Source of the DNA: an uncultured Granulicatella sp.
GTDB taxonomy: Bacteria; Bacillota; Bacilli; Lactobacillales; Aerococcaceae
Reading direction: 5' to 3'
Length of the DNA stretch: 7,249 nt
Assembly: GCA_937891475.1 (NCBI GenBank)
Contig: CALATC010000022.1
Span: forward strand, 1 to 7,249
Of this stretch, positions 271-7,249 are shown piece after piece; position 1 is the stretch's first letter; each line of letters starts with the position of its first letter. A program made the translations under genes and the position numbers. The notes below the pieces were generated by a model that saw only the letters and a list, made by a program, of their open reading frames with translations, was not told the origin of the DNA and ran no database searches.

Positions 271-282
271 TTACGTAAATTG

Positions 283-359
283 GACTTTGTCTAGCTGTAG
301 CAAGGGACGCTAGTAACCTCGCCTTGCGAGTCTCATTGTTAAGGCTACAGCAAAAAGTC
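283..359 (+). repeat. Short copy (E1) of a structured intergenic repeat
   Basis: This is a 77-base fold-back element between guaB and dps. The ends pair as GACTTT (283-288) with AAAGTC (354-359) and GCTGTAGC (294-301) with GCTACAGC (344-351). The interior contains hairpin CTCGC-CTT-GCGAG (318-330) followed by TCTCAT. The interior block from CGC at 308 to TTAA at 342 aligns with the block starting CGCCAGCAGCCTCG in the long element at 4269-4432 and with the reverse complement of the one at 4503-4667. It looks like the same family with the two other internal hairpins missing. It could also act as a weak terminator for guaB, although the bases after it (TCTATTTATTTC) are not a clean T-run. Confidence 0.7.
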
Positions 360-409
360 TATTTATTTCTTTATTATTTAAAAAAATATAAAAATTATGA
401 GCATTCTAG

Positions 410-2442: not shown

Positions 2443-2449
2443 ATTTGTC

Positions 2450-2489
2450 AGACAGTTCGTAACCATCCTGTCTATAAACAAAACTAGGG
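2450..2489 (+). promoter_or_regulatory. preQ1-I riboswitch aptamer
   Basis: Stem P1 is AGACAG (2450-2455) with CTGTCT (2468-2473), closing the 12-base loop TTCGTAACCATC. The A-rich tail ATAAACAAAACTAGGG (2474-2489) follows. This is the compact class I preQ1 layout: a small hairpin whose A-rich 3' tail folds back into the groove and forms a pseudoknot. Loop and tail strongly resemble the Thermoanaerobacter tengcongensis aptamer (loop ...GTAACC..., tail ...AACAAAACAAGGG). The position before queF-queC-queT fits the ligand, 7-aminomethyl-7-deazaguanine. I do not assign exact pseudoknot pairs. A class II aptamer, usual in streptococci, is not seen. Confidence 0.88.
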
Positions 2490-2516
2490 CTTATTTGAAC
2501 ATGAAATGATCAATAG

Positions 2517-3731: not shown

Positions 3732-4204
3732 TGAATAAAAAACAAATTAGATTATTAACACAAAATACTTTAATAGGGGCATTATATGTTGTTTTAACAT
3801 TAATTAATCCTATTTCTTACGGGATGTTTCAATTCCGTTTATCAACTTTATTAATGGGTGTGCCATTTTATAAACCGCAATTGTCATTAGGGATTTTAAT
3901 CGGTGTAATGATTAGTAATATTCCAAGCCCTCTTGGACCGATTGATATTTTATCTGGATTTTTAATTCAGTCAGTGAGTTTATATGTTTTTAACCGTATT
4001 TTCAAAAATTCTTATGTGAAGAGTGCTGCATATGGAATTTGGTGTGGTTTTGTAGTAGCCGCAGCATTGTATTACTCATTACAAGTGCCATTCTGGCCTA
4101 GCGTATTTGGCGTAGCTGTGTCTAATATTTTATTTGCCTTCTTAGGTACTTTTATTGTTGAAAAATTCTTAAAAGGATTTTTAGATAAAACAGTAGTTGA
4201 ATAG
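3731..4204 (+). CDS. queT: QueT family queuosine-precursor transporter (predicted ECF S component)
   Basis: This encodes a 157-residue, very hydrophobic protein with roughly five to six membrane segments starting near residue 12. It matches the QueT family (COG4708), whose genes are repeatedly found under preQ1 riboswitches and which is predicted to be the substrate-binding subunit of an energy-coupling-factor importer for queuosine precursors. The shared EcfA/EcfT module would be encoded elsewhere. Family-like segments are ISYGMFQFRLSTLLMGVPFY (28-47) and SNIPSPLGPIDILSG (62-76). The start is GTG 3731, overlapping the last base of the queC stop (TAGTG), with GGAG (3719-3722) eight bases upstream; no other early start exists. 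Transcription ends at the terminator 15 bases after the stop. The exact substrate (preQ1, preQ0 or queuine) is not readable from the sequence. Confidence 0.9.
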   Translation: MNKKQIRLLTQNTLIGALYVVLTLINPISYGMFQFRLSTLLMGVPFYKPQLSLGILIGVMISNIPSPLGPIDILSGFLIQSVSLYVFNRIFKNSYVKSAAYGIWCGFVVAAALYYSLQVPFWPSVFGVAVSNILFAFLGTFIVEKFLKGFLDKTVVE

Positions 4205-4218
4205 AAAACGATGAATAT

Positions 4219-4254
4219 ACTTCGAAACGTAATAGTGTTTCGAAGTCTTTTTTT
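4219..4254 (+). terminator. Intrinsic terminator of the que operon
   Basis: A perfect 10-bp stem, ACTTCGAAAC (4219-4228) with GTTTCGAAGT (4237-4246), closes an 8-base loop. It is followed by C and seven T (4248-4254). It stands 15 bases after the queT stop and is separate from the large structured element that follows. Confidence 0.9.
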
Positions 4255-4268
4255 GTTTGAACGTATGA

Positions 4269-4432
4269 GCTAAATGATGAAAGAAAAATTTTGTGTTAGC
4301 GAGGTCGCCAGCAGCCTCGTAAGCGAGTCTCATGGCTAAAATTTGAGCCTTGGTCTCAAATTTTACCTGTCATGGAAGCCAGGTGTGACTTCCATGACTT
4401 TCGCAACAAAAATTTTTCTTTCATCGTTTAGC
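4269..4432 (+). repeat. Long structured repeat, forward copy (E2)
   Basis: This 164-base element has four stems. P1, the closing stem, is 24 continuous pairs (4269-4292 with 4409-4432, one G·T). P2 pairs GCCA (4307-4310) with TGGC (4333-4336) around CTCG-TAAG-CGAG. P3 is an 11-bp stem (4337-4347/4355-4365) with loop CCTTGGT. P4 is 10 bp (GTCATGGAAG 4369-4378 with CTTCCATGAC 4389-4398). The junction blocks GAGGTCGCCAG, TTTACCTG and CTTTCGC are shared with the element at 4503-4667 read on the other strand. No open reading frame of note lies inside. I do not recognise a named family. Possible readings are a structured RNA, a BOX/RUP-like dispersed repeat or a non-autonomous mobile element. Confidence 0.8.
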
Positions 4433-4502
4433 TAAATTTTAAAACGTAGTGTAATTATTTTTTAGGAACTAATACATTTCAGTGAAAAAACGCAAAAATA
4501 AT

Positions 4503-4667
4503 ATAAAAGAAAGCAGAAAAATCTTTTTGTAGCGAAAGCAATAGAAACCAAGGGTTGGTTTCTATTGCAGGTAAAAATCGAGACCAAGGCTCGATTTTTA
4601 GCCAAGAGACCCATAGGGGCTACTGGCGACCTCTCAAACAAAAAAGCATTTTTCTGCTTTCTTTTAT
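4503..4667 (-). repeat. Long structured repeat, reverse copy (E3)
   Basis: This 165-base element is the same family as the one at 4269-4432, in the opposite orientation and 70 bases away. P1 pairs 4503-4522 with 4648-4667 (20 perfect pairs), then six more after a one-base bulge. The P4 equivalent is a perfect 14-bp stem (4538-4551/4555-4568, loop GGG). The P3 equivalent is 11 bp (4572-4582/4590-4600, loop ACCAAGG, i.e. CCTTGGT on the minus strand). The P2 equivalent pairs GCCA (4601-4604) with TGGC (4624-4627) around CCC-ATA-GGG. It ends 17 bases before the -35 of the histidine triad gene. Confidence 0.8.
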
Positions 4668-4684: not shown

Positions 4685-4713
4685 TTGACAGAAAGATAAA
4701 AGGAGAGTAAAGT
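4685..4713 (+). promoter_or_regulatory. Promoter of the histidine triad gene
   Basis: A perfect -35 TTGACA (4685-4690) lies 17 bases before TAAAGT (4708-4713), a 4/6 match to the -10. The start would fall near 4720, inside the palindrome at 4714-4740. An alternative TATAAA (4714-4719) would need a 23-base spacer and is less likely. Confidence 0.7.
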
Positions 4714-4755: not shown

Positions 4756-7249
4756 ATGAAAATTCATAAAAAATCATTACTAATTGGGAGTGCAAGCCTT
4801 GTTTTATTGGGAGGTTGTTCACTGTTTAATACTCAAAATACAAGTCAGCAAACAGAATCAGAAACGACAACAACAGAAATTTCAAAAGCTGATTTAGCAA
4901 AATTTGAAAAAATTGCTGAAGAAGTAAAAGAAAACAAACCAAAAACAATTGTGGGAGAAGTATTCGAAAATGGATACTTAAAAAAACATGGAGATCACTA
5001 TCATTTTGTATACGGAGCTCCACCAGCAGATGCTATCTATGAACAAAAAACTTCTACTACGAAAGCCATTAGTTCTGCAGATGACGGATATGTGTTTAAT
5101 CCAAATGACATTGTAGAAGAAAATGAAATGGGATATGTCGTTCGTCACGGAGATCATTACCATTTTATTTATAAAAATAATGCCCAACAAACACTTGCTA
5201 CAACACTTGCTACAAATCCGGTAGCACATGAACATCATGAAGAAGTTGAAGATGGCTATGTTTTTGATAAAAAAGATGTTGTTAGCGAAACTGAAACAGG
5301 GTATATCGTTCGTCATGGAGACCATTTCCATTATATTTATAAAGATAAACAAGGAAATCCTGTAGTAACTGCTGAACATCACGACCATGAAAGTGAACAC
5401 CATGATCATGAGGGTGAGAAACATGAGCACGAAGGTGAACACGATGATCATGACCATGATGGGTATGTATTTGACAAGAAAGATATTGTAAGTGAAACAG
5501 CAGAAGGTTATGTAGTTCGACATGGAGACCACTTCCATTTTATTTATAAAAATCAAGTGAATCCTGAAAGCACACAGCCTGATACTGTTACATCAACGAT
5601 TGGAAAAGTTGAAAGGGTAGAAAAGGAACTACATGGTTTAACAGGAGGAAGTGCAACAAAACCTACGACTCCTGAAACAAAACCAAACACTGAAGCTCCA
5701 ACTACACAGCCAAAAGAAAAACAATTTGCCGGAATTCATTATAGAACAAGTGACGGATTTTTATTTGATGGAAATCATATTATTGGAACATCAGGAGAAA
5801 ATTTATTAGTAGCTCATAATGGGAATATGAAAGATATTCATGTGATTCCATTTGAACAATTAGTCCATACAAAATGGGAAAATTTAATTCCTAAAGAACA
5901 TTTAGAAGCAGCTAAAGTACGCTATGATGGGACTGCAACGGCACCTAAAGAGGAACATCACCATGATGATGCAACGAAACCTGCAGAAATGAGTGAGTTA
6001 GATAAAAAAATCGAAGAAAAAATTGCAGGTATTATGAAACAATACGGTGTAAAACGTGAAAGTATTGTAGTCAATAAAGAAAAAAATGCCATTATTTATC
6101 CACACGGAGATCACCATCACGCTGATCCAATTGATGAACATAAACCAGTTGGAATTGGACACTCTCATAGCAATTATGAACTCTTCAAACCAGAAGAAGG
6201 AGTGGCTAAAAAAGAAGGGAATAAAGTTTATACAGGTGAAGAATTAGCAAGTGTTATAAAATTATTGAAAAATAATACATTTAACAACCAAAACTTTACA
6301 TTAGCAAATGGACATAAACGTGTGTCCTTCAGTTTCCCTCCAGAATTAGAGAAAAAATTAGGAACAAATATGATGGTGAAACTAACGACTCCAGATGGAA
6401 AAACGATTGAAAAATTATCAGGAAAAGTATTTGGTGAAGGTGTCGGTAATATTGCTAATTTTGAATTAGATAAACCATATTTACCTGGAGAAACATTTAA
6501 ATACACGATTACTTCAAAAGACTATCCAGAAGTAAATTATGAAGGAACATTTACAGTTCCGTCTTCATTAGCTTACAATATGGCAAGTCGTACGATTTTC
6601 TATCCATTCCATGCGGGGGATACTTATTTAAGAGTGAAACCTCAATATGCAGTACCAAAAGGGACTGATGCTTTAGTCAGAGTATTTGATGAATTTCATG
6701 GAAATGCGTACTTAGAAAATAACTACAAAGTGGGTGAAATTAAACTCCCTATTCCAAAATTAAATCAAGGAACTACGATGACAGCAGGAAATAAAATTCC
6801 GGTAACTTTCATGGCAAATGCTTATTTAGAAAATCAATCATCTTATATTGTAGAAGTGCCGATTTTAGAGAAAAATAATCAAACAGAAAAACCTGGAGTT
6901 TTATCACAATTCAAAGGACATGAAACAGAAGAAACTTCTAAGCCTGTCGAAAAAGGTGAAGAATCGCCAAAAGAAACTGGAAAACCTGTAGAGAAAGTTG
7001 AAGGAAGTTCAACACCAACAGGCGAAGGATTAAAACCTGAGTCAGAAAAACCAAATGAGAATTCTATTTCTGAGCCAGGATTAGAAGAAGCACCAGCAGT
7101 AGATCCAGTACAAGAAAAAATTGCGAAATTTGCTGCTAGCTACGGATTAGGATTAGATAGTGTCATTTTCAATATGGATGGAACGATTGAATTACGTTTA
7201 CCAAGTGGAAAAGTCGTTAAAAAGAATATGGCAGATTTTACAGGAGAAG
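4756..7249 (+). CDS. pht: Pht-like histidine triad zinc-binding lipoprotein (3' end outside window)
   Basis: 831 residues are visible and the frame is still open at the window end. A lipoprotein signal is clear: Lys at 2, 5 and 6, a hydrophobic stretch, then LLGGC with Cys21 for lipidation, so the protein should be anchored on the outer face of the membrane. Five histidine triads HGDHxH start at residues 78, 131, 187, 256 and 450. A degenerate sixth is HNGNMKDIH (354-362). Three 31-residue repeats carry triads two to four. A linker at 208-234 has 11 His among Asp/Glu. From about residue 416 the protein closely resembles, from memory, pneumococcal PhtE (YELFKPEEGVAKKEG, FELDKPYLPGETFKYTI). A Pro/Glu/Lys linker (712-784) precedes a last module from 785. 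Pht proteins capture zinc for Adc-type importers and can act as adhesins. ATG 4756 follows GAGGGAG (4744-4750). Confidence 0.92.
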   Translation, partial: MKIHKKSLLIGSASLVLLGGCSLFNTQNTSQQTESETTTTEISKADLAKFEKIAEEVKENKPKTIVGEVFENGYLKKHGDHYHFVYGAPPADAIYEQKTSTTKAISSADDGYVFNPNDIVEENEMGYVVRHGDHYHFIYKNNAQQTLATTLATNPVAHEHHEEVEDGYVFDKKDVVSETETGYIVRHGDHFHYIYKDKQGNPVVTAEHHDHESEHHDHEGEKHEHEGEHDDHDHDGYVFDKKDIVSETAEGYVVRHGDHFHFIYKNQVNPESTQPDTVTSTIGKVERVEKELHGLTGGSATKPTTPETKPNTEAPTTQPKEKQFAGIHYRTSDGFLFDGNHIIGTSGENLLVAHNGNMKDIHVIPFEQLVHTKWENLIPKEHLEAAKVRYDGTATAPKEEHHHDDATKPAEMSELDKKIEEKIAGIMKQYGVKRESIVVNKEKNAIIYPHGDHHHADPIDEHKPVGIGHSHSNYELFKPEEGVAKKEGNKVYTGEELASVIKLLKNNTFNNQNFTLANGHKRVSFSFPPELEKKLGTNMMVKLTTPDGKTIEKLSGKVFGEGVGNIANFELDKPYLPGETFKYTITSKDYPEVNYEGTFTVPSSLAYNMASRTIFYPFHAGDTYLRVKPQYAVPKGTDALVRVFDEFHGNAYLENNYKVGEIKLPIPKLNQGTTMTAGNKIPVTFMANAYLENQSSYIVEVPILEKNNQTEKPGVLSQFKGHETEETSKPVEKGEESPKETGKPVEKVEGSSTPTGEGLKPESEKPNENSISEPGLEEAPAVDPVQEKIAKFAASYGLGLDSVIFNMDGTIELRLPSGKVVKKNMADFTGE
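5083..5550 (+). repeat. Three diverged 31-codon histidine-triad repeats
   Basis: Units at 5083-5175, 5251-5343 and 5458-5550 encode residues 110-140, 166-196 and 235-265. Each has the plan DGYVF..(N)DIV..E..GY(V/I)VRHGDH(Y/F)H(F/Y)IYK. Units two and three are the most alike (DGYVFDKKD-V/I-VSET). The spacers differ: the first contains a 12-bp duplication, the second is the His/Asp/Glu-rich linker. Duplication within the gene is the simplest origin. Confidence 0.9.
5191..5214 (+). repeat. Perfect 12-bp tandem duplication inside the histidine triad gene
   Basis: ACACTTGCTACA occurs twice in direct succession (5191-5202 and 5203-5214), encoding TLATTLAT at residues 146-153. It keeps the frame and lies in a spacer between triad repeats, where length change should be tolerated. 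It looks like a recent slippage event. Confidence 0.9.

Follow-up and report, generated by a model that had tools for sequence, protein, structure and literature searches.

Structured elements in the window

The window, meaning the whole stretch of 7,249 nucleotides of Granulicatella DNA that was analysed, holds two full-form structured elements and a shorter relative. Element 1 (4268..4433, forward strand) is closed by arms at 4268-4292 and 4409-4433 that are 25 nt long and 96% complementary, and element 2 (4503..4667, reverse strand) by arms at 4503-4528 and 4642-4667 (26 nt, 92% complementary). The minimum free energy of element 1 is -78.0 kcal/mol against a shuffled mean of -36.8 (z -10.8) and that of element 2 is -72.8 kcal/mol against -33.5 (z -10.0), with none of 200 shuffles as low in either case. 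The covariance model R1, discussed below, matches element 1 at 103.3 bits (4287-4412) and element 2 at 99.1 bits (4524-4648); assignment of element 1 also draws on pair counts. The inverted repeats and fold scores bear out the original prediction that two structured elements lie here, and the paired differences it had read between them (two in P3, four of ten in P4, and a swapped P2) can be followed in the first two rows of our alignment A1.

Sub-coordinates in element 1, read by hand on the forward strand, place helix P1 at 4268-4301 with 4402-4433, hairpin P2 at 4307-4336, hairpin P3, which has a bulged T, at 4339-4363, and hairpin P4 at 4369-4398. The helix inventory given earlier was incomplete, having missed the 3-bp helix P1b (nGG/CCn; 4302-4304 with 4366-4368, alignment columns 24-26 with 92-94), which has P2 and P3 within it but not P4. 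A third copy had also been proposed; one is present at about 281..362 on the forward strand, but only in a short form (P1 and P2, without P3 or P4), and its fold is weaker (z -2.75; 2 of 200 shuffles match or beat its energy). A consensus scan found a terminator-like hairpin (4219..4246, forward strand) after the gene ending at 4204 and 21 bases upstream of element 1; by eye, it has no duplicate on the far side of the element.

Several other features of the window deserve mention in their own right. A weak match to the PreQ1 riboswitch (2447-2493, forward strand, 23.4 bits, gathering score 39) is followed by genes that we take to resemble queF, queC and queT. Just outside element 2 is a promoter-like TTGACA/TAAAGT (10/12) at 4685-4713 on the forward strand. 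Two paralogous copies in Granulicatella elegans ATCC 700633, at 1711317 and 1715913, have a like flank, so the flank of the repeat may supply a -35 box. Further on, a lipoprotein-like open reading frame (4756-7248, forward strand) with repeated HGDHxH motifs and three 121-nt repeats presumably resembles the histidine-triad proteins.

Covariation and spread of the family

A pattern scan of genome contigs picked out 14 stretches. Two belong to G. elegans ATCC 700633, and the 12 from elsewhere were taken as chance. Iterated nhmmer searching of ATCC 700633 gave 130 hits at a cut-off of E 1e-3, of which 119 reach 1e-9. Alignment A1 comprises 47 copies, two from the window and 45 of 80 near-full genome copies. 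Both sides change in 34 of its 48 pairs. In all, 93.6% of its cells are paired against 79.7% after shuffling, and the covariation score is 0.380 against 0.136, with none of 500 shuffles as high on either measure. When the partners were slid by one to three columns at most 46.9% pair, a comparison that favours the structure as drawn because it was drawn by hand from the A1 sequences. Left unaided, RNAalifold predicted 33 pairs on A1, 22 of them with two-sided change. The closing stem, followed over 96 copies, stands out from random places in part: it has a median of 34 pairs against 8, but its score exceeds the best random place in 41 of the 96.

Model R1 has matches in three of seven Granulicatella genomes (143 in G. 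elegans ATCC 700633, 93 in a second and one weak match in the third) and in at least 69 of 395 Lactobacillales genomes at E 1e-3, a lower bound because the filters were strict and only 8 candidates were scored per genome. In a further set, picked mostly for having matches, 25 of 26 genomes match R1 with 1 to 83 copies each. Three queries found no match for carriage of the family by phages or plasmids. The family is thus real, large and constrained in its fold: the expectation of further copies in Granulicatella and other Lactobacillales, with a fold kept by compensatory change, holds.

Modules and orthologous sites in Granulicatella elegans

The window is collinear with the ATCC 700633 genome: the longest stretch, of 3,355 bp, is 94.5% identical, and the next is 90.9% identical. 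Where the window has element 1, ATCC 700633 has a short form; where the window has copy 3, it has a full copy and, after that, a short one; and the counterpart of element 2 is an orthologous full copy with a different P2 hairpin. Since the forms differ between corresponding sites, full and short forms interchange at one site. The module made of P1 and P2 occurs 160 times in ATCC 700633, 102 times with the full core and 58 times without it, and not once in the reversed genome; family members without P3 or P4 occur. There are 31 pairs of same-strand neighbours at most 400 bp apart in this genome (16 full followed by short, 11 full by full and 4 short by short), and in 20 of the 31 the spacing is 171-192 bp.

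By a simple call of 1,562 open reading frames, 107 of 119 copies in ATCC 700633 are intergenic, and the remaining 12 overlap frames of 70-102 amino acids that we took to be spurious. The intergenic copies lie 68 between tandem genes, 37 between convergent genes and 2 between divergent genes, where the gaps of 100 bp or more available to them amount to 133,631, 24,628 and 31,187 bp, respectively. The strand of the copy is that of the genes in 50 of the 68 tandem cases. On 100-kb bins 79 of the 119 copies lie on the leading strand, a share that is inseparable here from gene direction. This placement, downstream of genes, hardly ever between divergent ones and in most cases in the orientation of the upstream gene, fits the targeting of terminators described below. 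Flanking direct repeats were seen around near-full ATCC 700633 copies in 9 cases, most of them due to neighbouring copies and none a duplicated terminator; the case at 523151 might be a 36-bp duplication.

Insertion into terminator hairpins

Relatives in another genus, which for the genomes G298, G010, G087, G255 and G467 we took to be Streptococcus on the strength of its number of genomes and of the Rfam match given below, carry the core within short units of 241-291 bp that have no transposase gene (291 bp in G298, and 241 and 245 bp at two sites, A and B). Seventeen near-identical copies were fetched from G298 and 16 examined, L297 being left out for its variant left end; a wider search gave two further copies with both ends, outside the 16. 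All 16 have a common left and right end 291 bp apart. Fifteen are flanked on both sides by an identical 13-32 bp, which in 14 of the 15 folds as a hairpin, while copy L291 has no flanking duplication. In 14 of the 16 the right-hand hairpin is followed by at least three T, so the orientation of the unit relative to the terminator is fixed. A separate repeat of about 57 bp lies to the right of one unit (L288:839-895) and is scattered, partly in tandem, over G298.

Empty sites complete the picture. At site B, 245 bp of G010 are absent from G087 and the 26-bp overlap is a terminator hairpin; G467 has the same coordinate pattern as G087. At site A seven genomes have about 241 bp that G010, G255 and G467 lack; the overlap is only 8 bp, and the terminator hairpin has its loop inverted in one of the two states, occupied and empty, relative to the other (L187 against L310). 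Taken together, G010 and G087 are each empty where the other is occupied. At another site, L189, the flanks are too diverged for a clean empty site. We considered the possibility that the outer arms of the closing stem are the arms of the target hairpin, and rejected it, as at sites A and B the unit itself contains the outer stem. The searches in Granulicatella yielded neither duplicated hairpins nor a matching mobiliser; mobility is a direct observation in the other genus, and we infer it for Granulicatella.

A candidate mobiliser

Transposases of the IS1182 family have matches in 16 of 29 genomes, above the cut-off in 8. The IS1182-family insertion sequence of G298 is 1,534 bp long, and its ends are identical to those of the unit at 14 of 16 and 13 of 16 positions. 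Random 16-mers were as good in 6 and 8 of 20,000 draws, which overstates chance since the pool contained some unit sequence. Three of five further IS1182 loci scanned (L400, L402 and L403) have the same right end, each time followed by a hairpin and a run of T, and two (L401 and L405) are without it; the G298 insertion sequence has a different hairpin on each of its two sides. G. elegans ATCC 700633 gave no IS1182 transposase match. The Granulicatella genome G004 has 12 IS1182-family copies over the cut-off, and the three compared end in GAGGCTGGGCAAAAAGTCTC, by eye unlike the ends of the unit. The similarity of ends in G298 supports the suggestion that an IS1182-family transposase moves the unit.

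Other mobilisers were considered. An IS1202-group enzyme came to mind with the 26-bp duplication, but NF033594 was found in only 2 of 18 genomes (G001, weakly, and G004) and not in G298 or G010, and the candidate was dropped. A candidate of the IS200/RAYT type is represented in ATCC 700633 by one intact and one broken PF01797 gene.

RNA or DNA, and the source of the paired changes

A fold made by RNA from one strand should tolerate G-U pairs and not A-C, so the balance of the two bears on the level at which the structure is used. Over 113 aligned rows, two of them from the window and three repeating copies in overlaps between pieces, the 3,810 cells of P2-P4 comprise 3,651 Watson-Crick, 39 G-T, 42 A-C and 78 other. 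The 15 rows from G004 have 5 G-T and 4 A-C, and the 30 rows from the other genus 3 and 10. The control, the tRNA stems of ATCC 700633, has 50 G-T in 706 cells, of which only the G-T share is used since the A-C count of 0 may reflect program notation. By helix the ratio of G-T to A-C is 15:5 in P2, 4:16 in P3, 20:21 in P4 and 80:33 in P1, which aligns poorly; as these balances differ the test rests on the P2-P4 sum, and P1 points the opposite way. Given no overall preference for wobble, the fold looks to be kept at the DNA level or on both strands.

Constraint could be gauged on a single orthologous copy. This copy lies between two genes that we take to be infB and rbfA, and 31 comparisons were made with the copy at L191, from 30 genomes (L253 and L272 being the same genome). 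Mean identity is 0.952 in the element, against 0.896 for what remains of the intergenic stretch and 0.793 for third codon positions. Identity in the element exceeds that at third positions in 31 of 31 comparisons and that of the remaining stretch in 30 of 31, although these are not independent, having a common reference and a tree in common. Constraint of this kind on one orthologous copy is not predicted by pure parasitism. Of 20 regions compared for the infB-rbfA spot, 13 (L254-L265 and L267) have another hairpin element there, about 107 nt long, one has a short form (L266), four a full copy and one neither, while one comes from another site. On these results some copies look domesticated.

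Should the copies, then, be seen as terminators or 3'-end protectors useful to the host, spread and kept for that use in the manner of REP/BIME units? Their position downstream of genes and the conserved infB-rbfA copy would suit such a role. The inserted units adjoin terminators that are still intact, however, and the different hairpin element of the 13 regions occupies the very spot of the conserved copy, and we regard this explanation as very unlikely.

The conserved copy would also suit a structured RNA family, an sRNA or an element of mRNA 3' ends, that is active when transcribed, with selection on the RNA fold and spread as a secondary matter. Strong compensatory change and the shared strand of copy and genes in 50 of the 68 tandem cases agree with this, and a relative, SSRC8, is an sRNA of S. 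pyogenes detected by Northern blot and RACE (PMC3675131); Table 4 of that paper has the 3' part of SSRC8 partially matched in many streptococci. The corresponding Rfam family, SSRC8_2 (RF02616), matches the window at 30.5 bits in antisense, against a gathering score of 72, and matches eight of eight chosen loci in the other genus, again in antisense, at 31.8-56.9 bits, all below that gathering score; two of the eight span the whole 281-nt model. A comparison of 20 loci with Rfam at the gathering score gave nothing. SSRC8 thus reads the opposite strand, insertion into terminators explains both placement and strand, and P2-P4 have 39 G-T and 42 A-C in 3,810 cells where the tRNA stems have 50 G-T in 706. 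We therefore consider a structured RNA family unlikely. The original prediction of an undescribed RNA family is not supported as worded: in the other genus the relatives are DNA that moves, with empty sites and duplicated targets, the pairs have no overall G-U preference, and Rfam already contains part of the family, as SSRC8_2, in antisense and with scores under the gathering threshold. Its hedge, RNA or cruciform DNA, was right to admit DNA.

Instead of selection on the fold, mutation itself could have produced the paired changes, through template switching or conversion, either between the arms of inverted repeats or between copies. Such a process would suit P2-P4 in A1, where two-sided changes are common and one-sided standard pairs rare, and it would suit the whole-hairpin swap of P2 between orthologs and the inverted terminator loop of site A. 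It sits poorly with junction and loop letters that are invariant over the 47 diverged copies, with the near-identical G298 copies, whose differences are by eye mostly at single positions, and with the constraint on one ortholog. We think it quite unlikely. The earlier statement that the elements are not just a copied repeat is half right, in that they are copies of a mobile repeat and their fold is nonetheless constrained.

A probable terminator-seeking mobile family

We conclude, with a probability of roughly 0.7, that the elements are copies of a family of small non-autonomous mobile elements (MITEs) that seek terminators, with a modular structured core and IS1182-like ends. The core consists of the closing stem P1, the inner helix P1b and the hairpins P2, P3 and P4, with P3, P4 or both optional. 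In the other genus the units of 241-291 bp insert into hairpins like those of intrinsic terminators, usually leaving a copy of the hairpin on each side, and would be moved by the IS1182-family transposase to which their ends point. The target may be chosen by hairpin shape, and the core fold is probably kept for its use as DNA, as hairpins or a cruciform in transposition, or on both strands, in which case one arm would be free to vary as long as its partner kept pace. We take the Granulicatella copies of the window as older members of the family.

A more speculative extension, possible but in our judgement clearly the less probable course, is that the core is a multi-hairpin fold selected as DNA and handled by a palindrome-seeking transposase, shape being recognised at donor and target alike. 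The length of the duplication would then be that of the hairpin hit, and the whole would be a "DNA family" supported by covariation, with one member entered in the catalogues as an sRNA and some members fixed in host operons.

If the terminator-seeking family is as we describe it, it illustrates how covariation alone can be read as RNA function, many pairs being compensated and yet the wobble counts and empty sites leading to mobile DNA. It links terminator hairpins, IS1182 transposases and a repeat found across many Lactobacillales, and suggests that one of the sRNA families on record is a mobile-element copy. Whether transposases recognise the shape of DNA at donor as well as target is a question that could be put to this natural system.

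Comparison with known systems

A literature search, with subscription journals mostly outside its coverage, found no description of the family as a repeat. The nearest streptococcal repeats, BOX, RUP, SPRITE and the BOX types of S. suis, are described in PMC3049150. BOX of S. pneumoniae and RepSU1 of S. suis are likewise modular, tightly folded and MITE-like, with an excess between convergent genes (PMC3049150); RepSU1 goes unmentioned in the available part of the main text of PMC2705793. A match to BOX had been named in advance as a result that would overturn the proposal. The best match to the BOXA1R primer is 14 of 22, the same as in shuffles, and the primer site is absent from 428 loci; identity with BOX was rejected on this primer signature alone. 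RUP and SPRITE of S. pneumoniae are likewise small, interspersed, MITE-like repeats of streptococci, set apart from our family by their descriptions, RUP being described as a repeat of simple build, 107 bp long, and SPRITE as a duplex of 18 bp with a T-rich tract (PMC3049150). SSRC8_2 differs in kind, having been published, in the part of PMC3675131 available, as an sRNA and not as a mobile repeat, and its sRNA strand is antisense to the elements.

A further parallel is the IS1182 family itself, in which IS1272/TnSha1 likewise insert into palindromes such as terminator hairpins (PMC4923244). IS1272 is reported to enter hairpins, including those of terminators, with partial deletion and without duplication (PMC4923244). 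Targeting of this type is seen in 14 of the 16 G298 copies, from the fold of the duplicated stretch, and at sites A and B. The unit differs from the IS1182 family in having no transposase of its own, and where IS1272 reportedly deletes part of the hairpin, insertion of the unit duplicates it.
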